Shown here: piece by piece, positions 33,496-63,451 of the stretch
How the letters are laid out: every line of letters starts with the position of its first letter
Numbering within the stretch: the first letter of the stretch is position 1
Assembly: GCF_001651875.1 (NCBI RefSeq)
Contig: NZ_LNQB01000083.1
Location: forward strand, 129,130 to 193,129
DNA: 64,000 nucleotides
Origin: Sinorhizobium saheli
Lineage (GTDB): Bacteria > Pseudomonadota > Alphaproteobacteria > Rhizobiales > Rhizobiaceae
Reading direction: 5' to 3'
Translations under genes and position numbers: made by a program
The notes under the pieces: model-generated
What the model was told of the DNA's origin: nothing
Database searches by the model: none
The model's input: only the letters and a program-made list of their open reading frames with translations

Positions 33496-34338
33496 ATGGC
33501 AAGCATTTTCGGTCGCGCGTGGCGTCGGATGGAGAAGCGGGTGCGGCTGACCGCGTACGCGGCTCGCGCCGACAGTTTCCTGATCTCCTATCCGAAATCG
33601 GGTCGCACCTGGTTCCGCTACGTTCTTTCGCACTATTTCGCCTCGGTTGCCGGCGTCTCCGGGCCGATCGACCTGCACAACATGTTCTCGGTCGTGCCGA
33701 ATTTCGATCTCGACCCGACGCGCGGAATTCCCGCCTATCGCTTCCGCGACAAGAATGGCGTGATACCGACGGTCCTGGTAAGCCATCTCGGCTATCGCGC
33801 GAGCCTGTTTCTCAGGCGCCCGGTCGTGATGATGGTCCGCGATCCGCGCGATGTGATCGTGTCGGCCTATTTCCATGCAACCCGGCACAAACACCGTTTC
33901 GAGGGCAGCCTTTCGGATTTCATCAAAGATCGCGACCAGGGCATGCCTGCGATGATCGGCTATCTCAACCGCTGGGCAGAGGGCCTCTCGAACCGCGACC
34001 ATTTCGTCCTGAGCTATGAGCGCCTCTCGGCCGATACGGAAGGGCAAACGGAAGCCGTTCTCGGGTTTCTTGGCTGCCGCATCGATCGCACGGCGCTTCG
34101 GGATGCAGTCGAGGCCGGACGCTTCGAGGCGATGCAGGACCGGGAGCGCGCAGAAGGAATCCCGGCCCACGACTATGATCGCAATGACGTGGAAAGCTTG
34201 CGCATGCGGCGCGGCAAGGCGGGGGGGTTTCACGACTATCTCGACGAGGCGCAGATCGCCGAGGTCGAGCGATTGTGCGCCACGCAACTGACGAGCGCCG
34301 CCAAGGGCCTTGTCGCGCGCACGGGATTGCATGTCTGA
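33496..34338 (+). CDS. PAPS-dependent sulfotransferase (first of three)
   Basis: A 280-residue sulfotransferase. The 5'-phosphosulfate loop is SYPKSGRTW (31-39) and the 3'-phosphate site is RDPRDVIVSAYF (115-126, with the serine at 123). A later RRGKAGGFHDYL stands for the RKGxxG motif of the Sulfotransfer_1 family. It would move sulfate from PAPS to a hydroxyl of a glycan or lipid. The ATG at 33496 has GAGGG ten bases upstream; the open frame before it is not coding-like. It is a single rightward gene followed by the GMC oxidoreductase 209 bases later. It belongs to a different subfamily from the other two in the window, so a different acceptor is likely. Confidence 0.86.
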   Translation: MASIFGRAWRRMEKRVRLTAYAARADSFLISYPKSGRTWFRYVLSHYFASVAGVSGPIDLHNMFSVVPNFDLDPTRGIPAYRFRDKNGVIPTVLVSHLGYRASLFLRRPVVMMVRDPRDVIVSAYFHATRHKHRFEGSLSDFIKDRDQGMPAMIGYLNRWAEGLSNRDHFVLSYERLSADTEGQTEAVLGFLGCRIDRTALRDAVEAGRFEAMQDRERAEGIPAHDYDRNDVESLRMRRGKAGGFHDYLDEAQIAEVERLCATQLTSAAKGLVARTGLHV

Positions 34339-34547
34339 CTGCGGAGAAACGGCCTCTCACGGTTTTGACGGAGAAGCCATTGCTTCGGTCTCAATTCTGC
34401 TCTACGAAGATTTCACAATATTTCTCACTTTATACAATCCTGTTTAAGATACCTTGGCCTCCTCTACGAGAGAGGCTTGCGTAAAGCTGAGCAAAATCAA
34501 GAATTTCCGATCGCGGCTCACCGTTAATCCATCAGGATGTGGCCCCA

Positions 34548-36146
34548 ATGGTTATCGTCAATCGGGCGGGACAAGAGACTGCATTTGAATTCGACATCTG
34601 TATCATCGGGGCCGGGGCCAGCGGCCTTACAATTGCTTCTGCGCTCGCCGGCACGCATGTAACCGTCTGCGTGCTCGAAAGCGGCGGCGATGCCAATTTT
34701 ACGGGCACGTCCGACCTCGCGACCGGCGAGTCCTCCGGGTTGCCTTATGCGCCGCTCGACACCAGCCGCCTGCGCGGCTTCGGCGGCAGTACGCGCGCGG
34801 GCGGATGGGGCGGCCTGTGCAAGCCGCTGGATGAGCAGGATTTCGAATATCGCCCTTGGGTGAACGACAGCGGCTGGCCGTTCGGCTACGATCATCTCCA
34901 CCCATATTATGAGAGAGCCAAGGAGACGCTTGGCGTTCCGGATGTCGACGAGCTGCGTCCGCGTGATACCGTCTTTGCCGGCCGTTCGGCGAAGCTCGCG
35001 AGCGACAGGCTGGCGCTCTGCCGCAATTTCCGGCTCGGCGACAGCCTGCGGGCGACGATCGAACGCTCGCCGTCGACGACCATTTTTCTCCATTCGACCG
35101 CCCTCTACCTAGAATTCGACAGCGCCCGGCACGCGGTCGCCTCGGTTCTGTTCAACCAGGGTGACGACCGAACCCTGCGGGTCACCGCACATGCCTATGT
35201 GCTGGCCGCCGGCGGGCTCGAAAACGCGCGCCTGCTGCTCCTCAGCCAAGGACTCGAAGGTCCGCCGAAGCAACTCGTCGGTCGGTATTTCATGGACCAT
35301 CCGCGCTTTTCCGTGGGCACGATCTACCCTCTGAAAAAAGATGCCTTCGCCGAACTCTTGAGTTTCGATCGCGTCCGCATCGCCCGCCGCCACACGGTGG
35401 AACGGTTGATCTGGCCGGGCTCGCGCCGTCACTTCAGGGTCAAAGGCCTGACGCTGTCCTTCGATGCCCAGAAAGAAGAGCAATTGCTCAACCACCGGGC
35501 CTGGGTGGAGCCCGTGTTCTCCGGTCAGGTAGACGAGACAATCGAGGCGCTCAAGTCGAAGATCCTCTCGCTGCGGGACTTGAGCCTGCAAGGACAGCGG
35601 CGCCCGCGCGTCTCGCACTCCATTCGCAACTTGCGGACCGTCAACTGGACGACGATCATGCATCTGGCGCGACCGGCGAGGCTCGCGCGCTGCTTCCGCC
35701 TACAGCACATCCTCGAGCCTGAGCCGTGCGCCGAGAGCGCCGTCAAGCTCTCGCGGCACCGGGACCGCTTCGGTCTGCGCAAGATCGACCTGCATTGGCG
35801 GCTCTCCGAGTCGACTTTGACGTCGCTGCGCCGAACTTTCCAGATCCTCCAGGCAGAGTTTCTGAGAACAGGCATCGCCCGGCTCGAAGCGACACCGGAG
35901 GAATGGGAACGGCTCGAGCGGCCGATGTGGACCTGGCATCACATCGGCACCACACGCATGCACGACGACCCCCGCCGCGGCGTCGTCGACGCCCAATGCA
36001 GGGTCCATGGTGTCAGCAACCTGTTCATTGCCGGCAGCTCCGTTTTTCCAACTGCCGGCAACGACACGCCGACATTCACCGCCGTGGCGCTTGCGCACCG
36101 CCTCGCCGACCATCTGATGGATATTGCTGCGGGATCATGTCCATGA
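34548..36146 (+). CDS. GMC-family FAD-dependent oxidoreductase
   Basis: A 532-residue enzyme with the FAD-binding motif CIIGAGASGLTIASALA near residue 16, an internal AAGGLENARLLL typical of the glucose-methanol-choline group, and the C-terminal domain HHIGTTRMHDDPRRGVVD and FPTAGNDTPTFTAVALA, where the catalytic His and Asn lie. No signal peptide. It would oxidise an alcohol, here most likely on a sugar or glycan intermediate. The ATG at 34548 has AGGA ten bases upstream; a GTG at 34539 is too close to it. Known polysaccharide clusters rarely carry this family, so its job is open. Confidence 0.83.
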   Translation: MVIVNRAGQETAFEFDICIIGAGASGLTIASALAGTHVTVCVLESGGDANFTGTSDLATGESSGLPYAPLDTSRLRGFGGSTRAGGWGGLCKPLDEQDFEYRPWVNDSGWPFGYDHLHPYYERAKETLGVPDVDELRPRDTVFAGRSAKLASDRLALCRNFRLGDSLRATIERSPSTTIFLHSTALYLEFDSARHAVASVLFNQGDDRTLRVTAHAYVLAAGGLENARLLLLSQGLEGPPKQLVGRYFMDHPRFSVGTIYPLKKDAFAELLSFDRVRIARRHTVERLIWPGSRRHFRVKGLTLSFDAQKEEQLLNHRAWVEPVFSGQVDETIEALKSKILSLRDLSLQGQRRPRVSHSIRNLRTVNWTTIMHLARPARLARCFRLQHILEPEPCAESAVKLSRHRDRFGLRKIDLHWRLSESTLTSLRRTFQILQAEFLRTGIARLEATPEEWERLERPMWTWHHIGTTRMHDDPRRGVVDAQCRVHGVSNLFIAGSSVFPTAGNDTPTFTAVALAHRLADHLMDIAAGSCP

Positions 36147-36207
36147 CGGCACGCGCTGCACCACCCTGCTCGTGAAACCATTCCCGCGGGATGGCGCGCG
36201 GGGGGGC

Positions 36208-36499: not shown

Positions 36500-38515
36500 A
36501 TGGAGTACCGAAAGGATATTGACGGATTGCGGGCGATCGCGGTCCTGCCGGTCGTTTTCTATCATGCGGGCATTGCCGGGTTTTCGGGCGGGTTTGTCGG
36601 TGTCGATATATTCTTCGTCATCTCGGGCTTTCTGATCACGGGCATCCTCCAACGGGAGCTTGCATCCGGACGCTTTTCGCTCGTCAAATTCTACGAGCGT
36701 CGCGCGCGGCGGATTCTGCCGGCGCTGTTCACCGTCGTTGCGATCTGCCTCGCGGCCGGTGCGTTTCTCCTTCTGCCGGACATGTTCACCAATCTCGCGC
36801 GCTCGGCGTTAGCGACGATGGTGTTCGCGTCGAACATATGGTTCTGGTACTCGACCGCCGATTATTTCGCCCCGAGTGCGGACCTGGAACCTTTGCTTCA
36901 CACCTGGTCGCTGGCGGTCGAGGAGCAGTTCTACATAGTCTTCCCGCTGCTCTTATGGTGGCTTTTCAGGAAACCTCGGAAGACTGCGGTCGGCGCGCTT
37001 GTCGGCTTGTGCATGCTGTCCTTCCTGCTGTCGGTGTGGGCGACGGGCGCCCATCCTCAGGAGAGTTTCTATTCCGCCCCTACAAGGGCCTGGGAGCTTG
37101 GTCTCGGCGTCCTTCTCGCGCTCGGCGTATTTCCAGCCAGTCGAAACGCGCGCCTCGTCGAGGCGATCGCCCTGGCGGGGCTCGCCGCCATCCTGGTGGC
37201 GGTCGTGTTCTATGGCGATGAGACGTCCTTCCCGGGTCTCGCTGCCGCGCTGCCCTGTCTTGGGGCGCTGGCGTTGCTGTGGTCGGGCGAGCAGCGAACG
37301 ACGGTGGTCGGCCGCATGCTCTCGAGCCCGATCCCGGTCGCGATCGGGCTCGTCTCCTACTCGCTTTATCTTTGGCATTGGCCCCTCGTCGTCTATTTCA
37401 GGCTGACGCTCGGCACGCTGGATCTTCCCCTGGCGCAGGCCCTGCTTGCCGTTGGACTGTCCTTTGCCTGCGCCTTTGCAAGCTGGCGCTTCGTCGAAAG
37501 GCCATTTCGCCGACGCCCGCCGGTCGGGTTTTCGCCGCGCTTCATTCTCGTCTCTGCCCTTGCCGGTGTGGCGGGGCTGTCTGCGGTGTCGGCGGTGATA
37601 AACGCACGCGAGGGGTTTCCGGGGCGGCTTCCGAAGGATGTTTGGCTTGCCTATTCGGAAAGCCGCGACATCGACACGCGGCGCGGCCGATGCGACGGCA
37701 AATTCCCGAAAGACGGGCTCTGCCGCATCGGGGCCGAGGCCAGTGCGGGCGGGAAGCCGACGAACGACGTGCTTCTTTGGGGCGACTCCCATGCGGGAGC
37801 GATCATGGTTGGCCTCGATCGGCTGCTGGGCGGAAAGAACCGGGGTGGGGCGGTTGCCTTCAAGGGCGCATGCCCGCCGATCCTCGGCATACAGCGGCTG
37901 GACCAGAAAGAGAGCCACAATTGCGCCGCCTTCAACGCGGCCATCATGGCAATGCTGGAGCATGGCAACGATTTTCCGATTGTCATCCTCAGCGGCCGCT
38001 GGCCGCTGGTGGCGAGCGGCAAGCGCTATCCCGGGGAGACTGGGCGCGCCGCTATCCTCGACCGCGTCGATTTCGAGGAGACGAGCCACGGTACGGCGCA
38101 AAACTACGGAATCTTCAAGAGCGAGTTCTTGAAGACGGTGCGGGCCATTCGCAATACCGGCCGGCGCGTCGTCATCGTCGACGGGATTCCGGAGATCGGC
38201 TGGTCGGTCCCCCACGCGCTCGGCCTCAGCCGTTTCATCGACGCCGACCTGCCGCCCGCGCCAACGAAGGAGATGGTCAAGGAGCGGAGTGCCAAGGCGA
38301 ATGCGGTGCTCGCGATTGCCGATGAGGATCCGGGCGTACAGCGTGTCAGCGCCGTGCCGCTTCTCTGCCGGCCCGTCTGCGCCGTGGAGAAAAACGGCAT
38401 CCCGCTCTACTCCGACGACGATCATCTCAGCGTTTACGGTGCCATGACCCTGGTACCGATCATGATGAAAGACCTGATGCCGACAGCGGCCGATCGCGGT
38501 TTCCAGCCAGGCTGA
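36500..38515 (+). CDS. OafA/YrhL-type membrane O-acyltransferase with SGNH domain
   Basis: A 671-residue protein that would put acetyl or another acyl group on the polysaccharide. Residues 1-360 form the acyltransferase-3 membrane domain with about ten helices: YRKDIDGLRAIAVLPVV at the start, FFVISGFLI, KFYERRARRILPA and LHTWSLAVEEQFY are standard. The periplasmic part (about 400-665) is an SGNH domain with LLWGDSHAG for the nucleophile serine and DDHLSVYGA for the Asp/His pair. The ATG at 36500 has AAGGGA seven bases upstream. It ends 118 bases from the convergent aminotransferase. Confidence 0.9.
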   Translation: MEYRKDIDGLRAIAVLPVVFYHAGIAGFSGGFVGVDIFFVISGFLITGILQRELASGRFSLVKFYERRARRILPALFTVVAICLAAGAFLLLPDMFTNLARSALATMVFASNIWFWYSTADYFAPSADLEPLLHTWSLAVEEQFYIVFPLLLWWLFRKPRKTAVGALVGLCMLSFLLSVWATGAHPQESFYSAPTRAWELGLGVLLALGVFPASRNARLVEAIALAGLAAILVAVVFYGDETSFPGLAAALPCLGALALLWSGEQRTTVVGRMLSSPIPVAIGLVSYSLYLWHWPLVVYFRLTLGTLDLPLAQALLAVGLSFACAFASWRFVERPFRRRPPVGFSPRFILVSALAGVAGLSAVSAVINAREGFPGRLPKDVWLAYSESRDIDTRRGRCDGKFPKDGLCRIGAEASAGGKPTNDVLLWGDSHAGAIMVGLDRLLGGKNRGGAVAFKGACPPILGIQRLDQKESHNCAAFNAAIMAMLEHGNDFPIVILSGRWPLVASGKRYPGETGRAAILDRVDFEETSHGTAQNYGIFKSEFLKTVRAIRNTGRRVVIVDGIPEIGWSVPHALGLSRFIDADLPPAPTKEMVKERSAKANAVLAIADEDPGVQRVSAVPLLCRPVCAVEKNGIPLYSDDDHLSVYGAMTLVPIMMKDLMPTAADRGFQPG

Positions 38516-38633: not shown

Positions 38634-39818
38634 TCACGCGGGCTGGTGCGCCACCTGCCCGGCACTTGCTTTTGCAAACACCGCCCTCAGGACATGAGCC
38701 GCCTTCTCCATCGCGGCCGTGTCGAGGGCGGGATCGACCAGGAACGTCAGGCTCGTCTCGCCCAGTTCCCGTGCATTCGGCAATCTTTGCGCGGGCGCCA
38801 TGCCGATGTCGGCAAATGCCTTCTCCAGGTAAATTTCCGAGCAGCTACCGCTGAAGCACGAGACCCCGGCCCCGTTGATCTCCGCAATGATCCTGTCCCT
38901 GCTCCAGCCGGGCCTCAAAAACTCCGGACGAACGAAGGTATAGAACCGGTACCATGCGTGCCTTATGCCGCCTGACGGCAGCGGTGTGCGCAGCGCCTCT
39001 ATCTCCGCGGCCGCCTTGGCGAGGATCCCCGCATTGTGCCCCCGGATGGTGTGCCATTGCGCCAGACGCTGCAATTGCCGCGAACCCAGCACGGCCTGTA
39101 TCGAGGTCATCCGCCAGTTCGTCCCGATGGACCCGTGCAGCCAGCGGAAGCCCGGCGGGTGCTCTCTGTTGAAAACCGCGTCGTAGGATTTGCCGTGATC
39201 CTTCCGGCTCCAGGCCTTTTTCCAGAGCTCGTCGTCGTTCATCGCCACGAGGCCGCCCTCGCCGCCCGTGGTGATGATCTTGTCCTGGCAGAATGAGAAG
39301 GCGGCGATATCGCCGAAACTGCCGACCGGCCGGCCGTCGATTTCCCCTCCATGCGCCTGGGCGCAGTCCTCGATGACCCACAGCCCATGCTCGCGGGCAA
39401 GCGCCATGATCGCCGGCATGTCACAGGGCCAGCCGGCAAGATGCACGGCGATGATGCCCTTGGTCCTCGGCGTGAGCTTCGCCCTGATGGTCTCTGCCGT
39501 GATGTTCTGGCTGTCGCGATCGACGTCAGCGAAGACCGCCACCCCGCCCGCCATCGGCACGGTGGACGCCGAAGCGATGAAACTGCGCGGGGTCACGATC
39601 ACCTCGTCGCCCGGTTCGAGCGCGAGCGCGAAGAGTGCGAGATCGAGCGCCACCGTTCCGTTCGCCACGGCGACGGCATGCCTGACGCCCAGAAATCGTT
39701 CATAGGCGGCCTCGAAGTTGCGCACGTGCGGCCCCGTCCAGGCGTTCACCTCGCCCGATCTCAACACGGACACGACGTCCTCGATCTGCTCCTCATCGTA
39801 AACCGGCCAGCGTCCCAT
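38634..39818 (-). CDS. DegT/DnrJ/EryC1-type sugar aminotransferase
   Basis: A 394-residue PLP enzyme that turns a keto-sugar nucleotide into an amino sugar. The Schiff-base lysine is Lys180 in SFCQDKIITTGGEGG, the ring-stacking region is IEDCAQAHGG (149-158), and the phosphate site is NGTVALDLAL near 53. The family partner is a 4,6-dehydratase, and one is present at 52109. Together they could make a UDP-4-amino-4,6-dideoxy sugar. The next gene on the same strand, 121 bases on... upstream, is the PIG-L deacetylase, then the ExoY-like transferase and ExoF-like protein, so four leftward genes may form one unit. Confidence 0.88.
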   Translation of the reverse strand: MGRWPVYDEEQIEDVVSVLRSGEVNAWTGPHVRNFEAAYERFLGVRHAVAVANGTVALDLALFALALEPGDEVIVTPRSFIASASTVPMAGGVAVFADVDRDSQNITAETIRAKLTPRTKGIIAVHLAGWPCDMPAIMALAREHGLWVIEDCAQAHGGEIDGRPVGSFGDIAAFSFCQDKIITTGGEGGLVAMNDDELWKKAWSRKDHGKSYDAVFNREHPPGFRWLHGSIGTNWRMTSIQAVLGSRQLQRLAQWHTIRGHNAGILAKAAAEIEALRTPLPSGGIRHAWYRFYTFVRPEFLRPGWSRDRIIAEINGAGVSCFSGSCSEIYLEKAFADIGMAPAQRLPNARELGETSLTFLVDPALDTAAMEKAAHVLRAVFAKASAGQVAHQPA

Positions 39819-39939: not shown

Positions 39940-40626
39940 TCAAACGACGTGACGAACCAGAACGAAGGCCTCGGCCGCGCGCCGCAACACCGTGGCGCCG
40001 CGGAGCGTGGCGAGCGCGCTCAGCGTCTCGATCGAGCGCTCGTGCGGGGCCTCGCGCAGTTGCGAAGCGAACATCTGCATCGCCTTCAGCTTTGCTTCGC
40101 GATAATCGCTGATGTCGACAAAGACATTCGGCGCGAAGGCCGGAGACAGATAGGGTGCGTTCCAATTCGTCTCCGACAGGGTTTCGTAAGCGAGAATGAG
40201 CTTCGGGAATTCCGCCTGGTGCGGCCGGCAGGCGACCAGCGCCGAGGCGAAGGTCAATTGATGATCCATGTGCATGTCGCCGACGAAGGGCAACAGCACG
40301 GTTTGCGGCGCCAGGCGGCGAACGAGTTCGAGCAGCGCGGCGTTGACGGTCACGTGCGCCATTTCCGCAAGCTGCGCCGCCGGCAGCCGCAGCCAGAAGG
40401 TCTCCTTCACGCCGAGCGCGCGATGCGCCTCCTTTGCCTCCGCCTGCGTCCTCGCAACCTCGGCCGGATCGAAGGCCGGCGGCTTGCCCTCCGTCACGAC
40501 CGCGACGAAGACCTCCTCGCCCTCCGACGCCAGCCTTGCGATGGTCCCGCCCGCGCCGAGCACTTCGTCATCGGGATGCGGCGCGAAGACCAGAGTGCGT
40601 CCGAAAGAAAGGCTCGAACCCGGCAT
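39940..40626 (-). CDS. PIG-L/LmbE-family deacetylase
   Basis: A 228-residue zinc-dependent de-N-acetylase. The metal motif HPDDE is at 17-21 (FAPHPDDEVLGAGG) and the third ligand is in DMHMDHQ (about 118). Family members remove acetyl from GlcNAc in lipids, mycothiol precursors or nucleotide sugars. No signal peptide, so it works in the cytoplasm. It lies between the aminotransferase and the ExoY-like transferase on the same strand, which suggests an amino sugar near the start of the repeat unit. Substrate is inferred. Confidence 0.86.
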   Translation of the reverse strand: MPGSSLSFGRTLVFAPHPDDEVLGAGGTIARLASEGEEVFVAVVTEGKPPAFDPAEVARTQAEAKEAHRALGVKETFWLRLPAAQLAEMAHVTVNAALLELVRRLAPQTVLLPFVGDMHMDHQLTFASALVACRPHQAEFPKLILAYETLSETNWNAPYLSPAFAPNVFVDISDYREAKLKAMQMFASQLREAPHERSIETLSALATLRGATVLRRAAEAFVLVRHVV

Positions 40627-40707: not shown

Positions 40708-41406
40708 TCAAAAAATACTGCCCGCCGCCGCAGGCTCCGCCCCCGCAGCGGCGCGACGCGCGAGGAACTCCTCGGCCATCTTCAGACGTCCCGCATGGAC
40801 GCGCTCGCCGGTCACCAGCGTCTTCAGCGTCAACAGCAGGATCCATGCGTCGAGCCTGAGATTGGCATGCGCGACATACCAGAGATCAAGCGCGATCTTC
40901 TCCTCGTCCGAAAGCCGCGTGTTGCCGTTCACCTGGGCCCAGCCGGTCATGCCAGGGGCAACGAGGCAGCGCATGCGGCCCAATTCGCCGAAGGCCGCAA
41001 TCGTCGCCACCGGAAGCGGCCGAGGCCCGACCATCGACATGTCGCCGGTCAGCACGGAAAGCAGTTGCGGCAGTTCGTCGAAGCGCAGCCGCCGCAACAG
41101 CCTGGTCGCAGCGGTCTGCCGCAATTCATCCGGCAAGAGCGTGCCGTCGGGGAAACGCGCATCCGTCATCGTGCGAAACTTGGCCACGGTGAAGACACGC
41201 ATCCCCACGCCCGCGCGCGCCTGGGTAAAGAACAGCGGACGCCCGAGGCTCGCCCGGACCACCACCCCCGTCACAGCCATCAGCGGCAGGCAGAGCACGA
41301 AGACGAGCCCGGCGAACAGGCATTCGAGCACTCGCCTGAGGCGGTAGGACCCCAAGGCGGGCGGCAGACCAAGAACGGTGACGGCTTGCTCTCGATTGGG
41401 CTTCAA
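40708..41406 (-). CDS. undecaprenyl-phosphate sugar-phosphate transferase (ExoY/WcaJ-like)
   Basis: A 232-residue initiating transferase that puts the first sugar-1-phosphate on undecaprenyl phosphate at the inner membrane. One re-entrant membrane helix spans 28-50; the catalytic core has PLFFTQARAGVGMRVFTVAKF... shortened here to QARAGVGM and AKFRTM, then RRLRFDELPQLL, GDMSMVGPRP and TGWAQVNG. It is the short form without an N-terminal multi-helix part, like ExoY. Its start lies 53 bases after the ExoF-like gene's stop. As the only such enzyme in the window it is the likely first step of this polysaccharide. Confidence 0.92.
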   Translation of the reverse strand: MKPNREQAVTVLGLPPALGSYRLRRVLECLFAGLVFVLCLPLMAVTGVVVRASLGRPLFFTQARAGVGMRVFTVAKFRTMTDARFPDGTLLPDELRQTAATRLLRRLRFDELPQLLSVLTGDMSMVGPRPLPVATIAAFGELGRMRCLVAPGMTGWAQVNGNTRLSDEEKIALDLWYVAHANLRLDAWILLLTLKTLVTGERVHAGRLKMAEEFLARRAAAGAEPAAAGSIF

Positions 41407-50764: not shown

Positions 50765-50815
50765 GCCGTCGCCGTTATATCAACAGGATATCGGGTCAAC
50801 AGGATGTCGGGCAGC

Positions 50816-54473: not shown

Positions 54474-55613
54474 TTGAACGACATCCGCGTTCTCAATTGC
54501 ATCACGGGACTGAATGTCGGCGGCGCGGAATACATGCTCGCCCGCTTCGTCAAGGGCCTGTCCGACAGCGCCTATCGACCTTCGGTGCTCTCGCTGATGC
54601 CGCCCGGGCGAGTGGCGGAATGCCGTGAACTTGCCGGCATTGACATCCAGTCGATCGGCATGCCGCAGGCGCATCCACGCTTCAATTCCCTGTGGCGGTT
54701 GTCGAAGGCAGTCCGGCGCGCCGACCCGGCGCTCTTTCACGGCTGGATGTACCACGGCAACATCGCCGCCTCGGTCGGCGCGCTCATGCACCGGCGGACA
54801 CCGGTGATCTGGAGTATCCACCATTCCGTCGTCGACATCAAAGCGGAAAGGCGCATGACGCAGCGCCTGATTGCGCTCGCCGCGCGACTGTCGCGCTGGA
54901 CCGCGGCGATTTCCTATTGCTCGCGCGTGTCGGCCGAACAGCATGAGGCGCTCGGCTTCGAGCCGTCGAAGCGGCATATCATCCCCAATGGGATCGACTG
55001 CGGCGAGTTCCGCCCGGCCGGGGAGGCCAGGAGCATGCTGCACCAGCTCTTCGACATTCCATCCGGGCGGCTGGTCATAGGGAATGTCGCCCGGGCGCAT
55101 CCGATGAAGGATCATGCAAGCTTCGTGAAAACCTTGGCGATCCTGCTCGACCAGGGCCATGACGTGCACGGCCTGATCATCGGCGAAGGGCATGAGACTG
55201 GCGATGGGCGCCGGACCGCCCGGGCCCTTGGCATCGAAGACCGGCTCACGACTTCGCCCGCCCGATCCGATATCAGCCGGCTGCTGCCGGGCCTCGACGT
55301 CTTCATGCTCTCGTCGTCCTGGGGCGAGGCGTTCCCGCTCTCCGTCGCCGAGGCGATGGCCTGCGGCGTGCCGGCCGTGGCGACCGACGTCGGCGACTGC
55401 GCCTGGCTGGTCGGCGACGAGGACCTGATCTCGAAACCCAGCAGGCCCGAAGCGCAGGCGGCCATCGTCGGCAAATTGCTCTCCCTCGCCGAGAGTGACC
55501 GGCGACAACTGGGCATGGCGGGACGCAGACGCGTCCTCGAGAACTTTTCGATCGAGAACTATGTCGCGCGACATTTGGCGCTTTACGAACAGGCGCTTTA
55601 CCGACGCACATGA
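54474..55613 (+). CDS. GT4-family glycosyltransferase
   Basis: A 379-residue GT-B enzyme that begins with TTG at 54474, backed by GAGGTAGG upstream. Landmarks are ITGLNVGGAEYMLARF at the N-terminus, WSIHHSVVD, HIIPNGIDCGEF in the linker and the donor-binding SSSWGEAFPLSVAEAMACGVP. These fit GT4 enzymes of O-antigen and capsule clusters. Its stop overlaps the next glycosyltransferase start by four bases (ATGA). Donor unknown. Confidence 0.88.
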   Translation: MNDIRVLNCITGLNVGGAEYMLARFVKGLSDSAYRPSVLSLMPPGRVAECRELAGIDIQSIGMPQAHPRFNSLWRLSKAVRRADPALFHGWMYHGNIAASVGALMHRRTPVIWSIHHSVVDIKAERRMTQRLIALAARLSRWTAAISYCSRVSAEQHEALGFEPSKRHIIPNGIDCGEFRPAGEARSMLHQLFDIPSGRLVIGNVARAHPMKDHASFVKTLAILLDQGHDVHGLIIGEGHETGDGRRTARALGIEDRLTTSPARSDISRLLPGLDVFMLSSSWGEAFPLSVAEAMACGVPAVATDVGDCAWLVGDEDLISKPSRPEAQAAIVGKLLSLAESDRRQLGMAGRRRVLENFSIENYVARHLALYEQALYRRT

Positions 55614-56860
55614 CGAAGGAGGGCTCCTTGGAACCGGCAAGCCAGACTTTGAGGTCCACAGCGGAAGTCGCCACCAGGGCTCTCCCCCATGCGGACAAGC
55701 CAACCATCTCGCACCCCTCCCACCGAAACAGGCGGGTGATTGCGGTGATCGCCAGTTTCACGCCGTCGTTGACGATCTTTCGGCTGGAGCTTTTGAGAAG
55801 GCTGGTCGCCGCCGGGCATCGGGTCGTGGCATTCGCCCCCGAGCAGGATGCAAGGGTCGAACATCAACTCGCCGGGATCGGCGTCGAATTCATTCGCATA
55901 CCCATGGCACGCACCGGTCTCAATCCGCTTGAAGACGTTGCGACGCTCTGGTCGCTCGTCAAGCACTTCAGGCGGCTGCGGCCGGACATGATCCTGCCCT
56001 ATACGATGAAGCCGATCATCTATGGCGGCATCGCCGCGCGGGCCCTGGGGATCAAGGACCGTTGCTTTCTCGTCACCGGTCTCGGCCACGTCTTCTCGGA
56101 GCAGGCGGACGGTTCGGCGAAGGCGCGGCTGGTGCGGCGTCTGTGCGTCTCGCTCTACCGGGTCGCTTTCGCCGGCGCAAAAGTGGTGTTCGTCTACAAT
56201 GACGCGGATGATGCGGATATCCGCAACCACCGCATGTTGCGGGACAATGCACTCATCACGATGGTGCCGGGTTCCGGCGTCGATCTCGATCACTTCGCCT
56301 TTTCGCGGCCGCCACAGGGCGCACCGGTCTTCCTGATGGTGGCCCGGCTCCTGCGGGACAAGGGCGTCGTCGAATATGTCCAGGCGGCACGGATCGTCCG
56401 GCAATCGTTCCCCGAGGCGAGATTCCAGCTCCTCGGCCATTTCGACAGCAACCCGACCGCCATCTCCCGGGAGGAGATCGATGGCTGGGTCCGTGAGGGG
56501 GTCCTTGAATATCTCGGCAGCACCGACGACGTCCGGCCGTATCTCGCCGCCTGCTCGGTCTTCGTGTTGCCCTCCTACTATCGCGAGGGCATTCCGCGCA
56601 GCATCCTGGAAGCGCTGGCGACGGGCCGGCCGGTCATCACCACGGACCTCCCCGGCTGTCGCGACACCGTGGAGCCCGGCGCCAACGGCTTCGCCGTCAA
56701 GGCGCGCGACGCGGCCGATCTGGCGAAGGCGATGATCGCCCTCGCTGAAGATCCGGAACTGGTTGAACGGATGGGCGAGAAGTCACGCGAGATAGCGACG
56801 AGCAAGTTCGACGTCCATGCCGTCAACCGGCTGCTGTTCGAGCGCATGCAACTGGAATAG
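55610..56860 (+). CDS. GT4-family glycosyltransferase (CapM/WbaZ-like)
   Basis: A 416-residue GT-B enzyme with a 40-residue extra N-terminus before VIAVIASFTPSLTIFRLELLRRL. It has PYTMKPIIYGGIAARALG and VTGLGHVFS, typical of the CapM/PglA-like transferases that act early on undecaprenyl-linked sugars, and the donor segment SYYREGIPRSILEALATGRP. The start overlaps the previous glycosyltransferase by ATGA. It is the last rightward gene of the locus and is followed by a RIME-type repeat. Confidence 0.88.
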   Translation: MTKEGSLEPASQTLRSTAEVATRALPHADKPTISHPSHRNRRVIAVIASFTPSLTIFRLELLRRLVAAGHRVVAFAPEQDARVEHQLAGIGVEFIRIPMARTGLNPLEDVATLWSLVKHFRRLRPDMILPYTMKPIIYGGIAARALGIKDRCFLVTGLGHVFSEQADGSAKARLVRRLCVSLYRVAFAGAKVVFVYNDADDADIRNHRMLRDNALITMVPGSGVDLDHFAFSRPPQGAPVFLMVARLLRDKGVVEYVQAARIVRQSFPEARFQLLGHFDSNPTAISREEIDGWVREGVLEYLGSTDDVRPYLAACSVFVLPSYYREGIPRSILEALATGRPVITTDLPGCRDTVEPGANGFAVKARDAADLAKAMIALAEDPELVERMGEKSREIATSKFDVHAVNRLLFERMQLE

Positions 56861-57031: not shown

Positions 57032-57949
57032 TTAGCCGAAGTCCCCAAGCCCCGTCTCTGCCTTCCACGCTTCGATGCCCTCACGGAGCGAGCGGGGGCT
57101 GTATCCTAACTGCTCGACGGCCTTGGCGACATTCAGGGCCGCGAAGCCGATCATCGTCTTTCCCTCCCGCTCGCCTTCGATATTGACGAGGGTCGGCTCC
57201 GCGCCGAGGGCCGCGGCGACAATCCGAGCCGCATCCGACGAGTTGCAGGCCTCGCCACTGCCGGCGTTGAACACGCCGGCCTTTTCCTTCTCGACCGCCG
57301 CCAGCGCCAGCGAAACGACGTCGTCGACGTGGACGAGGTCGACGCGGTATCGCCCTCCGTCCCGTATGACCACGGAACGGCCGCTCGCAAGCGCGCGAAT
57401 GAAAGTCGGCAGCATCCCCGTGGCATGCATGCCGGGACCATAGACGGAGGCGAGGCGGAGCACCGTCACAGGCATGGCGTTGGCCGCGCCGAAGGCGAGC
57501 AGGCAAATCTCTGCCGAGAGCTTGCTCGCGAGATAATAGCTCGCCCGCTCGACGGGAAAGGTAGGGCTCGTCTCCAGGGCCGGTTCCGCGGCGGGCGTAT
57601 AAACCTGTCCCGATCCGAAGAAGACAAATCTCTTCACGCCGTGGGCCGCGGCACTCATCGCGACCTGCAGGGCCCCGTTGGTGTTGACCTCGAAGCACCT
57701 GGCGGCCTGGTGCGCGTCGCCGAAATCGGCAGGAATATAGGCGGCGAGATGGAAGATGGCATCCGCCCCCGCGACCGCCGGCAAGGGGTCGCCGATCGAC
57801 CATTTCTCGACGACGAAACGAGAATCTTGTCGCGGCGCGACCCCGTCCGGGTCACGGGCCAGTGCCGTAACCTGGTGACCTCTTGAAAGCGCCTCGGCGA
57901 TCAGCCTCGAGGCGATGAACCCTGTCGCTCCGGTGACAACGAGTTGCAC
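57032..57949 (-). CDS. NAD-dependent nucleotide-sugar epimerase/dehydratase (SDR family)
   Basis: A 305-residue extended short-chain dehydrogenase. The NAD loop is VTGATGFIAS (5-14), the catalytic pair is Tyr139 and Lys143 (SYYLASK) with a serine in FGSGQVY near 113, and VYGPGM and RVDLVHVDDV follow as in GalE/RmlD-like enzymes. The start is read as GTG at 57949; the frame upstream to 58030 lacks a good start. It is the last gene of the operon with the ATP-grasp and PHP genes. Its sugar is unknown. Confidence 0.83.
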   Translation of the reverse strand: MQLVVTGATGFIASRLIAEALSRGHQVTALARDPDGVAPRQDSRFVVEKWSIGDPLPAVAGADAIFHLAAYIPADFGDAHQAARCFEVNTNGALQVAMSAAAHGVKRFVFFGSGQVYTPAAEPALETSPTFPVERASYYLASKLSAEICLLAFGAANAMPVTVLRLASVYGPGMHATGMLPTFIRALASGRSVVIRDGGRYRVDLVHVDDVVSLALAAVEKEKAGVFNAGSGEACNSSDAARIVAAALGAEPTLVNIEGEREGKTMIGFAALNVAKAVEQLGYSPRSLREGIEAWKAETGLGDFG

Positions 57950-58035
57950 GTCGAGCCCCGCCTTCCCTACCGTATGCAAAGTGCTGCAGAGACGCTGGCG
58001 CGTCTGATCGGACACGCGGCGCCGCAGCAAGCCGC

Positions 58036-59028
58036 CTACACTTCTTCCTGCAACCGCTCCTTGGCCGTTATCAATTCACCGGGTCTCACGACGGTTTCCG
58101 ACCAGTGCCGCAAGATCGTCACCGGCACGATCTCCGGCTGCTCGACCGGCTCGCCGAAGAGGATGTGACGGATGCACATCTCGACCTCGTTGAACCCCGC
58201 ATGGATCCGGACGGCCGTGGTCCCGGAGAACCGTGCATTGATCTCGAAAATACGGGGAACGCCGTCGTCGAGGCGGAACTGGAAGTTCGCAGGGCCATAG
58301 GCGCCGAGCGCATCGGCGGCCTGTGCCATCGCCGTATTCAGGGCGGGAAAGGCTTCGGCGAATGCCCTGTAGGTGTTGCCGTCCCGGAGATCCCGGCGCA
58401 TGACGATCGTCGCGCGGCATTTGCCGTCGAAGGTGAGCGTACCCGCCGTGTATTCGGTCGTTTCGGAACCGACATATTTCTGTATGACAATACCGGGCTG
58501 CTCGGCGATCGCGCGCCTCAGTTGCTCCCGGTCGCGCACGATGCCGAAGCCGATCGATCGCGCGCCGACCCTCGGCTTGACCACGAGCGGAAAGCCGCAC
58601 GCTTCGATCAAGTCCTCCTCGTCGCCCGGCAAACACGAAGGAACGAAACCGAGGCCCCGCTCCCGCAGGAACTCGGACGTGAGCCATTTGTCGTTCGCAA
58701 TCGAGACCACAGATGGCGAACTGATGATCACCTTGGTCCCATAGGCCCTCTCTATCATCTCGCGATTGGCCGAGAGGATCGGAAGCTCGACATCGGTTCC
58801 GGGGATGAGGATATCCGGCCGTTCCGCCACCAGCAAGTCGCCCAGCCGGTCCAGATAGGCCGGGTCCTTCGCCATCGGCACGAGGTGGGCCGCATCCCCC
58901 CAGTAGAGCCCGGCCGAGAGCGGACTCGGATCGCCGACGATGATCGTCGCTTTCAGGCTCGAACGCCGCAAGGCGCGGATGATCCCTTGCCCGAGGAGGG
59001 CGCCCGCCCCCGTAATGAAGACCTTCAT
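58036..59028 (-). CDS. ATP-grasp (carbamoyl-phosphate-synthase-like) ligase
   Basis: A 330-residue enzyme. The N-terminal part MKVFITGAGALLGQGIIRALRR is a pre-ATP-grasp Rossmann-like region; ANDKWLTSEFLRERGL, FPLVVKPRVGARSIGFG and FEINARFSGTT mark the ATP-grasp nucleotide and metal sites. Such enzymes join a carboxylate to an amine or similar group through an acyl phosphate. In this setting it might amidate a uronic acid, but no substrate motif supports that directly. The ATG overlaps the PHP stop by four bases; the gap to the epimerase is 86 bases. Confidence 0.8.
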   Translation of the reverse strand: MKVFITGAGALLGQGIIRALRRSSLKATIIVGDPSPLSAGLYWGDAAHLVPMAKDPAYLDRLGDLLVAERPDILIPGTDVELPILSANREMIERAYGTKVIISSPSVVSIANDKWLTSEFLRERGLGFVPSCLPGDEEDLIEACGFPLVVKPRVGARSIGFGIVRDREQLRRAIAEQPGIVIQKYVGSETTEYTAGTLTFDGKCRATIVMRRDLRDGNTYRAFAEAFPALNTAMAQAADALGAYGPANFQFRLDDGVPRIFEINARFSGTTAVRIHAGFNEVEMCIRHILFGEPVEQPEIVPVTILRHWSETVVRPGELITAKERLQEEV

Positions 59029-59765
59029 GATCGCCCTATCCCCAATTCAAGCAGTTGATCCCTGCAACGACCGAGTTCGCTCAACCTGTGTGCATCGGAA
59101 CCGATCGAGACATAGGGATTGATCTCTTCGCAGAGCGCCAGGAATGCAGGCATGTCGACGAGATAGGACGAGTTGATCTCGATCGCGATCCGCCGTTCGA
59201 GCGTCGACGTCATCAGCGCGCGAAAATATTCTTCCGGGAAACGGCCATGCCGCCTCAGGCTCATCCCGCCTGGATGGCCCAGGACGTCGATGGGCGCCTT
59301 CGCAATCATGCCCAGCGACAGCCGGAACTCAATCTCGGCGGTCTCCTCGAAGGAAAGCTGCTTGAAATCGAGATAGCCGCCCTTGCCGTCCGGCAAACGA
59401 TGGACGACGCCGAGAACGATATCGCATGCGTCGAGCACCGACTGCGACACATCCAGCCTGCCCTGGTCGTCCATGGCCTTGGTTTCACAGCCGACACAGA
59501 CCCGTATGTCGTCGAACGCGCCCGCGGCCGAAAGAACCTCGGTCTTGAAATCGGGAAACCAGGCCGTGTCCTCGCGGACATGCTCGGTGAACGCCAGGGC
59601 GCCGAGGCCGCGTTCGCGGGCAGTCTGCAGGATTTCGAGGACCGTCGCCTGTCCGTCGGTCCAGGTGGTGTGAAGCTGAAGTTCGACATTCACTTGCTCC
59701 CGGCCGAGATCCCGGAACCGAGAGAACACATGCTTGCAGGTGTGCGTCTTGCCTTGCCCGTCCAT
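59025..59765 (-). CDS. PHP-domain metal-dependent phosphoesterase-like protein
   Basis: A 246-residue protein with the PHP metal motifs: ELQLHTTWTDG near residue 28, AFTEHVRED near 57, a middle DIVLGVVHRL, VLGHPGG and a late IGSDAH (about 228). The family includes histidinol phosphatase and the tyrosine phosphatases CpsB/CapC of capsule loci, so dephosphorylation of a sugar or of a kinase is possible. The ATG at 59765 is chosen because the longer frame to 60068 overlaps cysQ. It is coupled to the ATP-grasp gene and lies 85 bases after cysQ on the same strand. Confidence 0.78.
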   Translation of the reverse strand: MDGQGKTHTCKHVFSRFRDLGREQVNVELQLHTTWTDGQATVLEILQTARERGLGALAFTEHVREDTAWFPDFKTEVLSAAGAFDDIRVCVGCETKAMDDQGRLDVSQSVLDACDIVLGVVHRLPDGKGGYLDFKQLSFEETAEIEFRLSLGMIAKAPIDVLGHPGGMSLRRHGRFPEEYFRALMTSTLERRIAIEINSSYLVDMPAFLALCEEINPYVSIGSDAHRLSELGRCRDQLLELGIGRS

Positions 59766-59850: not shown

Positions 59851-60654
59851 TCAGGCCACCGGAACCGAAGCCATGTCCGCCCAGGCGATGAAATGCGGGT
59901 TGGCAAAGTCGCTGTCGCCGTCCTGCCGCGTCTTGCCATAGAGCAGGCGGGCGCCGTCCAAGCGCACCACCGATCCGCCGGCGGCCCTGAGCACGGCATC
60001 GCCGGCCGCCGTGTCCCATTCCATCGTCCGGCCGAAGCGCGGATAGACGTCCGCCTTGCCCTCGGCAAGCAGGCAGAATTTGAGCGACGAGCCGACGGAT
60101 GTGCAGTCCGTGACGCCGTGGCCGACGAGGAAAGCCTCGGTCTCGCTGCTTCCGTGCGAGCGGCTGGCGACCGCCGTCAGCCTCTCGCCGCGTGTCCGCA
60201 CGCGGATCATCTGCCGCTCCTCGACCGCGAAGGCTTGGCCGAGGACGAGCTTCTGCGCCCGGCCGCTATCGGCGACATAGGCGCAGCGCTGCGCCGGCGC
60301 GTAGACGATGCCGGCAATCGGCACATTGCCCTCGATGAGGGCGATGTTGACGGTGAAGTCGTCGCGACGGTTGATGAATTCCTTCGTCCCGTCCAGCGGA
60401 TCGACCAGAAAGAACCGGCCGCCGTTGATATCGGGAACGCGGCCCGCAGCCACCGCCTCCTCGGCAACGACCGGGATCCCGGGAAAGGCGGCGGCAAGGC
60501 GCTCGAGGATGATGGCTTCGGCGCGCTCGTCGGCTTCCGTGACCGGCGACTGGTCGTGCTTGTAGCAAACGCTGGGCCCGGCCTCATAGACGTCGAGGAT
60601 CGCCGCGCCGGCGTCGAGCGCGATGTGTTCGAAGAGTTCGCAAAGGGGCGTCAT
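59851..60654 (-). CDS. cysQ: 3'(2'),5'-bisphosphate nucleotidase
   Basis: A 267-residue magnesium-dependent phosphatase of the inositol-monophosphatase fold. Landmarks are [11 protein letters not shown] (about 36), VVAEEAV, the metal motif DPLDGTKEF (about 85-93) and WDTAAGDA near 213. CysQ removes the 3'-phosphate of PAP, the by-product of every sulfotransferase, which otherwise inhibits them. Its ATG overlaps the cysNC stop by four bases, so the PAPS maker and the PAP remover are made together, in a locus with three sulfotransferases. Confidence 0.9.
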
Positions 60655-62552
60655 TTTTCGTCCATTCTCCCGTCGAGGAATTGCTCGATCCGGAGTGCGA
60701 GCTCGATCGGCTCATAGCCGACCGTCTCGAGGTGAAGTTCCGGTTTTTCGGGAGCCTCATAGGGCGAGGAGACGCCGGTGAAATTCGCGATCTTGCCGGC
60801 GAGCGCCTTTTCGTAGAGCCCCTTGGGGTCGCGGCGCGCGCACTCGTCAAGCGGCGTATCGACGAAGATCTCGATGAATTCGCCCTCCTCCATCAATTCG
60901 CGCGCCATGCGCCGCTCGTCGCGGAACGGCGAGATGAAGGATACGAGAACGATCAGGCCGGCATCGGCCATCAGCTTGGCGACCTCTGCGACGCGGCGGA
61001 TGTTCTCGACACGGTCCTCCTCGGTGAAGCCGAGGTCGCGGTTGAGGCCGTGGCGGACGTTGTCGCCGTCGAGCAGGTAGGTGTGCTTGCCCCGCGCATG
61101 CAGGATCCGGTCGAGCGCATTTGCGATCGTCGACTTGCCGGAGCCGGAAAGCCCGGTGAACCAGAGCACGGCAGGGCGCTGGTGCTTCATCGCGCTGCGG
61201 GCGCCCTTATTCACCTCGAGCGCGTGCCAATGCACGTTGTCGGCGCGACGCAGCGGAAAATCGATCATGCCGGCGCCGACGGTGGCGTTCGTCACCCGGT
61301 CGACGATGATGAAATTGCCCGTCGCCCGGTTGTCCTTGTAGGCGTCGAAGGCGATCGGCGTCTGCGTCGAGAAGTTGCAGACGCCGACCTCGTTCATCTG
61401 CAGCGATTTTGCCGCCTCGCGCAGGAAGCTGTTGATGTTCACCTGATGCTTGAGCGCCGTCACCGTGGCGCTGACGCTGTCCGTCTCGGTCCTGAGAATA
61501 TAGCTGCGCCCGGGAAGCATAGGGCTCGCGTCGAACCAGATCACATGAGCCTGGAACTGGTCGGCCACGAAGGGCCGCGCGGCGGGGGTGACGAGCATGT
61601 TGCCGCGGGAGGCATCGACCTCGTCCGCAAGCACGATCGTCACCGCCTCGCCCTCCGCCGCCGTTTCAAGATTGCCGTCATAGGTGACGATCGCCTTGAC
61701 CGACGAGCGCTGCCCGGATTTCGCGACGACGACCGGATCGCCGACCGAAACGCTGCCGGAAGCGACCTGGCCGGCATAGCCGCGAAAATCCGCGTTCGGC
61801 CGCATCACCAGTTGAACCGGGAAACGGAAAGGCTTCTCCCCGTCGGTCGGATCGAGCTCGACCGTCTCCAGGTATTCGAGCAGCGCCGGCCCCTTGTACC
61901 AGGGCGTGTTCGCCGATGCCGAGATGACGTTATCGCCGTAGCGGGCCGAGATCGGGATCGGCTGGACGCTGGCGAAGCCCAGCTCCTTCGCAAAGACCGC
62001 GTAATCGGCGACGATCTCGTCGAAGACCTGCTCGCGGAAGTCGACAAGGTCGATCTTGTTGACCGCGAGCACCACGTGGCGGATGCCGAGCAGCGAGGCG
62101 ATGTAGGAGTGGCGCCGCGTCTGCTGCAGGATGCCCTGGCGGCTGTCGATGAGGATGATGGCGAGATCGGCCGTCGAGGCGCCGGTCACCATGTTGCGCG
62201 TATATTCCTCGTGGCCGGGCGTGTCGGCGACGATGAACTTGCGCTTCGAGGTGGCGAAATAGCGGTAGGCGACGTCGATCGTGATGCCCTGTTCGCGCTC
62301 GGCCTCGAGCCCGTCGAGAAGCAAAGCGAGATCGATCTCCTTGCCGTTGGCGGCGCCGGGGGCGCCGACGCGCCCGAGATTTGCCAGTTGGTCCTCGAAG
62401 ATCAGCTTGGCATCGTAGAGCAGCCGTCCGATCAGCGTCGACTTGCCGTCGTCGACCGAGCCGCAGGTCATGAACCTCAGGATCGACTTGTTGTCGTGCT
62501 CGGCCAGATGCGTCTCGATGTCATGGGGCGGTATGGATTGGACATAAGACAT
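60651..62552 (-). CDS. cysNC: bifunctional ATP sulfurylase GTPase subunit and APS kinase (NodQ-like)
   Basis: A 633-residue fusion. The N-terminal GTPase (about 20-230) has GSVDDGKST (31-39), [12 protein letters not shown] and NKIDLVD, and two beta-barrel domains follow. The C-terminal kinase begins near 456: P-loop GLSGSGKST (467-475) and the active serine Ser541 in [10 protein letters not shown], so both halves look active. With CysD it makes APS and then PAPS, the sulfate donor. This fusion is the form of rhizobial NodQ, and the pair may be a nodPQ copy; no nod genes are nearby, and the neighbours point to polysaccharide sulfation. Its ATG shares one base with the cysD stop (TGATG). Confidence 0.94.
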
Positions 62553-63451
62553 CAGAAGTACCCCTCACGCTTCTTCTTCTCCATCGCGCCCGCCTCGTCC
62601 TTGTCGATGAGGCGGCTCTGCCGCTCGGACGTGCGCACCGTCAACATCTCCCGCAATATGTCCGGAACCGTGGCGGCCTCGGACTCGATCGCGCCCGTCA
62701 GCGGATAGCAGCCGAGCGTGCGGAACCGCACCAGGCTTTCGACGACCTCCTCGCCGGGCCCGATCGGCATGCGCTCGTCATCGACCATAATCAGCATGCC
62801 GTCGCGGCGCACGATCGGGCGCCGTGCGGCGAAATAAAGCGGTACGATGGGAATGTCTTCACGCAGGATGTATTGCCAGATGTCGAACTCCGTCCAATTC
62901 GAGAGCGGAAACACCCGCATCGTCTCGCCCTTGCCGACCCGCGTGTTGAAGGTCTTCCACATCTCCGGGCGCTGACGCTTCGGATCCCAGCCGTGCTGGG
63001 CGTTGCGGATCGAGAAGATGCGCTCCTTGGCGCGAGACTTCTCCTCGTCGCGCCGCGCCCCCGCCAGTGCCGCATCGAAGCCGTATCGCTCCAGCGCCTG
63101 CCTTAGCGCCATCGTCTTCATGATGTGGGTGTGGACGTTGGAGCCGTGCGAAAAAGGGCCGACGCCCTGATCTATCCCGTCCTGGTTGACGTGCACGAGG
63201 AGGTTGAATCCGAGCTCCCGCGCCATCCGGTCACGGAACTCGATCATCTCCCGGAACTTCCATTTGGTGTCCACATGCAGGAAGGGGAAAGGCGGTTTGG
63301 CCGGGTAGAACGCCTTCATTGCCAGATGCAAGAGCACGGACGAGTCTTTTCCAATGGAATAGAGCGCGACCGGATTTGAAAACGTTGCAACGACTTCCCG
63401 AATGACATGGATCGCTTCAGCTTCAAGCCGCCGAAGGTGAGGAAGAGACAT
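62552..63451 (-). CDS. cysD: sulfate adenylyltransferase catalytic subunit (NodP-like)
   Basis: A 299-residue PP-loop enzyme that joins ATP and sulfate to give APS, working with the CysN GTPase. The PP-loop is [14 protein letters not shown] near residue 31, followed by [25 protein letters not shown] and [17 protein letters not shown] lies nine bases before the ATG at 63451. It opens a six-gene leftward operon (cysD, cysNC, cysQ, PHP, ATP-grasp, epimerase) with a strong promoter 140-170 bases upstream. Confidence 0.94.

Follow-up and report, generated by a model that had tools for sequence, protein, structure and literature searches.

A stretch of 64,000 nucleotides from the Sinorhizobium saheli genome (hereafter 'the window'; C83:129130-193129, where C83 is contig NZ_LNQB01000083.1 of an assembly of 6.0 Mb in 102 contigs) carries a polysaccharide locus which in all probability builds a Wzx/Wzy-dependent surface polysaccharide with a sulfated repeat unit. 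The sulfate donor 3′-phosphoadenosine 5′-phosphosulfate (PAPS) would be supplied by CysD and CysNC and used by three sulfotransferases (ST1, ST2 and ST3), with the product 3′-phosphoadenosine 5′-phosphate (PAP) being removed by CysQ. Gene identities were defined by gene calling together with Pfam and NCBIfam profile scans of the window proteins (Table 1). All six genes on which a first-pass annotation of this DNA had built its proposal of a sulfated polymer (the three sulfotransferases, cysD, cysNC and cysQ) were confirmed at their positions, and the sulfotransferases (33496, 47495 and 49841) are intact, match their profiles and lie with the three cys genes inside a Wzx/Wzy-type locus. The proposal of a sulfated surface polysaccharide is further supported by a counterpart cluster in S. 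meliloti, for which the same inference has been published, and by capsule clusters whose sulfated polymers have been solved. It is therefore sound, but it is already in print for the S. meliloti orthologue. On the evidence of its genes, the locus is real and conserved, and very probably functional for polysaccharide sulfation.

Three sulfotransferases of separate kinds

The three sulfotransferases resemble separate groups of solved structures, in agreement with their earlier description as members of different subfamilies. ST1 matches Sulfotransfer_1 (Pfam, E 4e-24), and its closest solved chain is SULT2B1. ST2 matches Sulfotransfer_3 (E 4e-18) and was found, in a sequence search of solved structures, to be related to heparan sulfate 3-O-sulfotransferases and NDST (top match 3rnl, a sulfotransferase, E 3e-25; also 1t8t, E 2e-17). 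ST3 matches Sulfotransfer_3 as well (E 1.5e-15) and has weak solved-structure matches alone, of the CurM and tyrosylprotein sulfotransferase types. Each enzyme contains letters that we take to be the 5′- and 3′-phosphosulfate-binding (PAPS-binding) motifs: YPKSGRTWF and VRDPRDVIVSAYF in ST1, both identical in S. meliloti ml21; IGATKSATTWL and LRNPVDRA in ST2; and GYGRSGTT and VRDGRG in ST3 of the window strain, the first of which is an unmatched pattern in the ml21 orthologue. The longest open reading frame of ST1 begins upstream, at 33391; because alignments to the 13 genus orthologues found start no earlier than residue 29-35, the ATG at 33496 is supported as the start. Identity to S. meliloti 1021 is 82% for ST1, 85% for ST2 and 76% for ST3, and the ratio of nonsynonymous to synonymous change (dN/dS) against ml21 is 0.12, 0.09 and 0.19, respectively (0.06-0.19 across the six sulfation genes); these enzymes and the other sulfation genes are under purifying selection. 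The ST2 orthologue of S. meliloti RCAM1115 gives an alignment split into two pieces at a place without a listed gene (stretch L110:3342-4177, whose gene table is incomplete), so a disrupted gene is possible there.

Supply of PAPS and proposed assembly of the polymer

Both the synthesis of PAPS and the removal of PAP are represented in the cluster: CysD and CysNC score above curated cut-offs, as does the predicted CysQ with TIGR01331. CysQ keeps PAP from building up. The overlap of cysNC and cysQ by ATGA, reported in the first-pass annotation, is visible in the sequence, and cysD and cysNC share one base in TGATG. The run cysD-cysNC-cysQ-PHP-ATP-grasp-epimerase lies on a single strand with gaps of -1, -4, 85, -4 and 5 bases; given the shared strand and the small gaps, the PHP, ATP-grasp and epimerase genes are probably part of the cysD operon. 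A promoter and terminator scan of 63400-63700 detected nothing. A sulfate ABC transporter (substrate-binding protein, CysT, CysW and CysA types) is found ~7-11 kb beyond cysD, outside the window, and one of the same type ~14-18 kb beyond cysD in S. meliloti RCAM1115; the transporter has been left out of the locus because other genes intervene.

The mechanism proposed for the locus would begin with sugar nucleotides made by the CapD-type dehydratase, the aminotransferase, the formyltransferase and the deacetylase (in a step order that we infer), after which the Bac_transf enzyme would start the repeat unit and the glycosyltransferases extend it. CysD and CysNC would activate sulfate to PAPS, from which ST1, ST2 and ST3 would move sulfate to the sugars; since PAPS is cytoplasmic, this would most likely take place in the cytoplasm on the lipid-linked repeat unit. 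CysQ would remove the product PAP, Wzx would flip the unit, Wzy with Wzc would polymerise it and Wza would export the polymer. This order of Wzx, Wzy, Wzc and Wza is that of the standard pathway, and the synechan (xss) cluster is also of the Wzx/Wzy type. The positions of the sulfate groups, the stage of sulfation and a site of its own for each sulfotransferase are predictions, and the first-pass annotation's figure of up to three kinds of sulfated site is a conjecture.

The neighbourhoods of CysNC relatives were compared for the best 80 of 592, with the window strain's sulfotransferases and a NodH fragment as the only sulfotransferase queries, and the counts are lower bounds as contigs are often short. 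A cysQ homologue is present at no fewer than 45 of these 80 loci, PHP plus ATP-grasp at at least 3 and a detectable sulfotransferase at at least 6; NodA or NodC is found at at least 3, none of those three with cysQ. Most of the more distant loci showed neither polysaccharide genes nor, with those queries, a sulfotransferase. The PHP/ATP-grasp pair (58036-59765), whose genes overlap by 4 bases, stands after cysQ in 6/6 Sinorhizobium megaplasmid stretches compared, but of the 45 named loci that have a cysQ homologue only 3 showed it; a role in decorating the sugar is possible.

A counterpart cluster in S. meliloti

The closest plasmid matches of the locus are Sinorhizobium megaplasmids and, to judge from gene content and order, it is the counterpart of the nodP2Q2-SMb21249 cluster on pSymB of S. 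meliloti. In strain 1021 (pSymB 786637-820132, reversed), counterparts exist for 23 of the 26 locus genes, 19 of them at 69-91% identity. Shared at that level over ~33 kb, in largely the same order, are cysD, cysNC and cysQ (90%, 91% and 84% for the proteins), PHP, ATP-grasp, the epimerase and ST1-3, alongside Wzx, Wza, the initiating transferase, the deacetylase and the aminotransferase. Other genes have diverged or been replaced, namely those for Wzy (44%), Wzc (26%), GTd (29%) and the lyase-like protein (29%); the S. meliloti cluster has Wzy, Wzc and the lyase-like gene at other places, GTd and GTe in exchanged order and ST3 in the opposite orientation, whilst the GMC oxidoreductase, the OafA acyltransferase and GTb are extra in the window locus. 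Since the assembly genes are more diverged than the sulfation genes, the polymer backbone may differ between the window strain and S. meliloti, with the sulfation set kept.

The S. meliloti tags are anchored because published pSymB site coordinates before SMb21245 and SMb21240 fall directly upstream of the Wza and Wzc matches (PMC12542648, in which SMb21227 is named ATP-grasp); the sulfotransferase tags SMb21237, SMb21243 and SMb21249 were assigned by order. It has been reported that nodP2, nodQ2 and SMb21243 are among the genes activated by Clr, possibly as indirect targets as regards the cluster, and nodP2Q2 with three sulfotransferases in the cluster was taken to suggest a sulfated polysaccharide (Zou et al. 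2017; PMC5498481). In the 64-kb window the Clr-box consensus has one match, at 18559, inside a cyclase gene and away from the locus (0.37 expected by chance), and the same scan found no box in front of cysD. A polymer structure was not found in the available text of the literature naming locus tags of the S. meliloti cluster.

Similar gene sets accompany polymers of solved structure. The capsule cluster of Cobetia marina KMM 1449 has a cysN/cysC fusion, cysD, cysQ, a sulfate permease and sulfotransferases, and the capsule structure has been solved and is sulfated (PMC11766843); the likeness is one of gene content, and that capsule is of the ABC-transporter (Kps) type rather than Wzx/Wzy. In Vibrio sp. 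KMM 8419, which has a sulfated capsule of solved structure, second copies of cysC, cysN and cysD stand with three sulfotransferase genes in the polysaccharide cluster, and PAPS genes with sulfotransferases were termed a hallmark (PMC11641403); export there is by ABC transporter, and 'cysQ' is absent from the main text. By description, the synechan (xss) cluster of the cyanobacterium Synechocystis, which makes a sulfated exopolysaccharide with sulfotransferases, is also alike (PMC8205485).

Distribution in the genus

Across the genus, 33 genomes were surveyed, the window strain's own included and one of them 70% complete. CysNC was found in 27, ST1 in 14, ST2 in 27 and ST3 in 21, the sets being all three (13 genomes), ST2 with ST3 (7), ST2 alone (6), ST1 with ST2 (1), ST3 alone (1) and none (5). 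At least one of ST1-3 is present in 27/27 genomes with CysNC versus 1/6 without (Fisher p 2.5e-5, uncorrected for relatedness), and CysNC lies within 60 kb of one of them in 23 of the 27. The sulfation genes of what has been called the 'unknown polysaccharide' cluster of S. meliloti are widespread in the genus and, because the sulfotransferase set varies between three, two and one, a link of sulfation pattern to host or niche is testable. Among individual stretches, S. meliloti ml21 and S. kummerowiae carry all three sulfotransferases; those of S. americanum and S. terangae showed only ST3.

Sulfate activation and sulfation elsewhere in the genome

A second cysD is located on contig C73, together with a cysN that lacks an APS (adenosine 5′-phosphosulfate) kinase domain and with cysH. 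This CysH scores above the cut-off of the APS reductase model TIGR02055 and contains the two cysteine pairs as well as ECGLH; as it is of the APS-reductase type and has its own cysDN, cysteine synthesis can use APS directly and need not draw on PAPS. CysH in rhizobia reportedly prefers APS (Abola et al. 1999, at second hand from a review). An assimilatory role for the window cysDNC was rejected on these grounds, and there is no reductase gene beside it.

APS kinase has two matches in the genome, the window CysNC and a stand-alone enzyme at C83:99706 that exceeds the Pfam cut-off and falls short of the NCBIfam one. The latter follows a gene (C83:97379-99622) for a fusion of a pyruvate kinase barrel (residues 26-335), a PUA domain and an ATP sulfurylase, in which no pyruvate kinase C-terminal domain was matched, and is itself followed by a Na+/H+ exchanger. 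Both halves of the fusion score above Pfam and below NCBIfam cut-offs; in the sulfurylase the QxRN motif reads HSRN, with HxGH and GRDH retained. At E 1e-100, the protein was found in 2 of 72,556 plasmid records (S. chiapasense and E. adhaerens, with conserved neighbours) and, among 397 genomes sampled from the order, in that of the window strain alone. The fusion might couple ATP regeneration from phosphoenolpyruvate to sulfate activation. By title and abstract start, no description of such a fusion was seen among the literature matches listed, which leave most subscription literature uncovered.

A genome-wide scan with three Pfams (PF00685, PF13469 and PF09037) found five sulfotransferases. 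Besides ST1-3 there are ST4 (C83:113730-114431) and a Stf0-type enzyme (C83:415728-416369). ST4 sits in a second exopolysaccharide cluster (C83:110000-129500, at 3524-4486 of that stretch), which has Wzx, Wza, a Wzc-type protein, an initiating transferase and an ABC exporter with a HlyD partner. The Stf0-type gene (7609-8379 of stretch L119) has two family-2 glycosyltransferase-like genes on one flank, and its product could be a lipopolysaccharide sulfotransferase like LpsS.

Competing explanations

Several observations weigh against a dedicated sulfated polymer. Its sulfation is deduced from genes alone, both here and, in the accounts available, for the S. meliloti counterpart. Of the 33 genomes, 19 lack ST1 and 12 lack ST3, and 4 of the 27 genomes with CysNC (a count that pools nod-linked and locus copies, 12 genomes having two) have no sulfotransferase within 60 kb of it (on other contigs in three, 929 kb away in one). 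Between the two species Wzy, Wzc and one glycosyltransferase are just 26-44% alike, with Wzy, Wzc and the lyase-like gene repositioned. A second possible PAPS-type pair (C83:97379 to about 100.2 kb) means that donor supply is not exclusive, two CysQ genes score above the cut-off (the window copy and C59:78641), and two of the sulfotransferases lie outside the locus. The earlier claim that the locus has its own donor supply can thus be kept as far as CysD, CysNC and CysQ are present locally; that this supply is reserved for one polymer is probably wrong, given the second PAPS-type pair and the additional sulfotransferases. It is plausible, though less probable than not, that cysD-cysNC-cysQ are the general PAPS supply of the cell for several sulfated glycans (this polymer, the ST4 exopolysaccharide and the Stf0-type product): the window CysNC is the only one found in the genome, two of the five sulfotransferases are not in its locus, and loss of nodPQ in M. 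loti is stated at second hand, in a review, to abolish sulfated polysaccharides. Against such a general role, the second APS kinase stands beside an ATP sulfurylase fusion ~14 kb from ST4 (both below NCBIfam cut-offs), and CysNC keeps company with ST1-3 in most genomes that have it.

Whether every one of ST1-3 acts on this polymer can also be questioned. ST1 is SULT-like, ST3 is weakly like CurM and tyrosylprotein types, and presence of the three differs between genomes, all of which would suit an arrangement in which just one or two act here and the rest sulfate protein, lipid or a small molecule; we regard this as unlikely, since all three lie among glycosyltransferases, likewise in S. meliloti and S. 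kummerowiae, and sequence similarity does not reveal the acceptor. Mixed gene orientation and many glycosyltransferases, together with the published count for the S. meliloti cluster of 13 glycosyltransferases, 2 tyrosine kinases and 3 transport proteins (PMC5498481), could indicate two polysaccharides with the sulfation genes serving one of them, which is more doubtful again, as Wzx, Wza, Wzy (Wzy_C) and the initiating sugar transferase occur once each in the window's block (Pfam). A single sulfated surface polysaccharide, made with PAPS from the local genes, is the explanation that we prefer.

The window cysDNC and Nod-factor sulfation

The first-pass annotation had preferred a surface polysaccharide to Nod-factor sulfation, and this preference holds: nodA is on another contig, NodH did not appear in the three-Pfam scans and the sulfation genes recur in the S. 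meliloti cluster. Contig C88, which carries nodA, is 36 kb long, and an assembly in 102 contigs limits what can be said on long-range linkage; Pfam scans of the window genes from 14925 onward gave no nod family. NodH was not among the PF00685, PF13469 and PF09037 matches of the genome, to which no direct whole-genome NodH search was added; the NodH fragment itself just exceeds the PF13469 and PF00685 cut-offs, and the best match of NodH to the genome's five sulfotransferases has E 0.004, with 19% identity over 93 residues. The nodA region finds its closest matches in plasmids of Agrobacterium pusense and of S. alkalisoli from Sesbania nodules, and on the plasmid with the closest nod genes no nodH is annotated within 15 kb either side. 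In S. meliloti 2011, the nodH-nodPQ region of pSymA encodes a CysNC 91% identical to that of the window, with NodH as the acceptor enzyme, and has no cysQ, PHP or ATP-grasp gene in the 20.8 kb examined.

Nod-factor sulfation was accordingly rejected as the role of the window cysDNC, there being no NodH in the Pfam scans and no nod linkage. That these genes are a nodPQ remnant serving this purpose is very improbable indeed: nod-linked NodQ is among the closest relatives of CysNC and the genome has nodA, but the missing NodH matches and the plasmid without a nearby nodH argue against it, as does a CysNC tree that sets the nod copies among the locus copies. According to a 2013 comparative paper, Nod-factor sulfation is the exclusive use of nodPQ in S. 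meliloti, and S. saheli and S. fredii each possess a single nodPQ copy and lack nodH. The locus offers a role other than Nod factor for nodPQ in species without nodH; nodPQ apart from nod genes is already known as nodP2Q2.

Probable gene conversion between nodPQ and the locus copy

In a tree of 24 close CysNC rows (12 nod-linked, 12 with PHP/ATP-grasp adjacent) the labels interleave, well-supported branches force at least 5 changes of nod label, and the deepest two branches, moderately supported (92/79 and 86/79), are of the locus type. The evidence for conversion comes from two species with one copy pair each. Over 2809 bases, the copy on pSymA shares 98.9% identity with that on pSymB in S. 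medicae ml18 and 99.1% in S. meliloti (2011 pSymA vs 1021 pSymB); the two 21-kb stretches of ml18 have no further alignment at E 1e-20. Compared across the two species, identity is 89.6% for the pSymA copies and for the pSymB copies alike, against 96-99% for the pSymA flanks. Within each species the two copies evolve in concert. Had pSymA overwritten pSymB in both species, the value between species would resemble that of the flanks; as it does not, the donor in one of them at least was the locus copy. The nod-linked nodPQ of S. meliloti and S. medicae look to have been overwritten by the locus cysD-cysNC through gene conversion. We lean towards the view that the polysaccharide locus is the source from which nodPQ has repeatedly been copied or overwritten, so that in the genus polysaccharide sulfation would be the earlier role, its PAPS genes being borrowed for the sulfation of Nod factors. 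If true, this would explain the single 'nodPQ' kept in sinorhizobia without nodH. Among the literature matches listed, none describes gene conversion of nodPQ; in the available text of PMC1780047 the term occurs only in tuf/rRNA references.

Features of the window

Scans of the whole window for tRNA genes and Rfam families gave zero matches. The genes of the locus are listed in Table 1.

Table 1. Predicted genes of the polysaccharide locus (window positions; GT, glycosyltransferase)
Feature	Position	Strand	Basis and S. meliloti counterpart
Wzc-type co-polymerase/kinase	27629..29920	-	26% to SMb21240, positioned elsewhere in S. meliloti cluster
Wzy-type polymerase/ligase (Wzy_C)	30538..31863	-	44% to S. 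meliloti counterpart, positioned elsewhere there
Glycosyltransferase GTa	31860..33023	-	Pfam
ST1 sulfotransferase, cytosolic-SULT type	33496..34338	+	PF00685; SMb21249 counterpart (tag by gene order)
GMC oxidoreductase	34539..36146	+	Pfam; none found in S. meliloti cluster
OafA-type acyltransferase with SGNH domain	36500..38515	+	Pfam; in S. americanum, none found in S. meliloti cluster
DegT-type sugar aminotransferase	38634..39818	-	Pfam; SMb21248 counterpart by order
PIG-L deacetylase	39940..40626	-	Pfam; SMb21247 counterpart by order
Initiating sugar transferase (Bac_transf)	40708..41406	-	Pfam
Wza-type export protein	41460..42707	-	Pfam; exoF3/SMb21245 counterpart, agrees with published pSymB coordinates
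Wzx flippase	43077..44435	+	PF01943
Pectate-lyase-like protein (PelZ-like)	44509..45966	-	Below family cut-off
Glycosyltransferase GTb	46164..47492	+	Pfam; no own place in S. meliloti cluster
ST2 sulfotransferase	47495..48334	+	Sulfotransfer_3; SMb21243 counterpart by order
Glycosyltransferase GTc	48509..49759	+	Pfam; SMb21242 counterpart by order
ST3 sulfotransferase	49841..50764	+	Sulfotransfer_3; SMb21237 counterpart by order
Sugar N-formyltransferase-like protein	50804..51727	+	Pfam; below NCBIfam cut-offs
CapD/PglF-type UDP-sugar 4,6-dehydratase	52109..54304	+	PF02719
Glycosyltransferase GTd	54474..55613	+	Pfam; 29% to S. meliloti counterpart
Glycosyltransferase GTe	55610..56860	+	Pfam
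NAD-dependent sugar epimerase/dehydratase, final gene of cysD run	57032..58030	-	Pfam; 5-base gap to ATP-grasp gene
ATP-grasp ligase-like protein	58036..59028	-	Pfam and NF009402 above cut-off; SMb21227 counterpart
PHP-domain phosphoesterase-like protein	59025..59765	-	PF02811; start from equal-length S. meliloti ml21 gene
cysQ, PAP phosphatase	59851..60654	-	TIGR01331, 285 bits vs cut-off 229
cysNC (nodQ2 counterpart), ATP sulfurylase GTPase subunit and APS kinase fusion	60651..62552	-	NF004035, 1047 bits vs cut-off 715
cysD (nodP2 counterpart), ATP sulfurylase small subunit	62552..63451	-	TIGR02039, 523 bits vs cut-off 397

The pectate-lyase-like protein (44509-45966) has about 30% identity to a lyase-like protein beside Wzc in the S. 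meliloti cluster, and it is possibly a polymer lyase that tracks the backbone. To the left of the polysaccharide genes, the window encodes a protein with a guanylate/adenylate cyclase domain and a DUF3095 protein (18020-19603 and 21148-22377).

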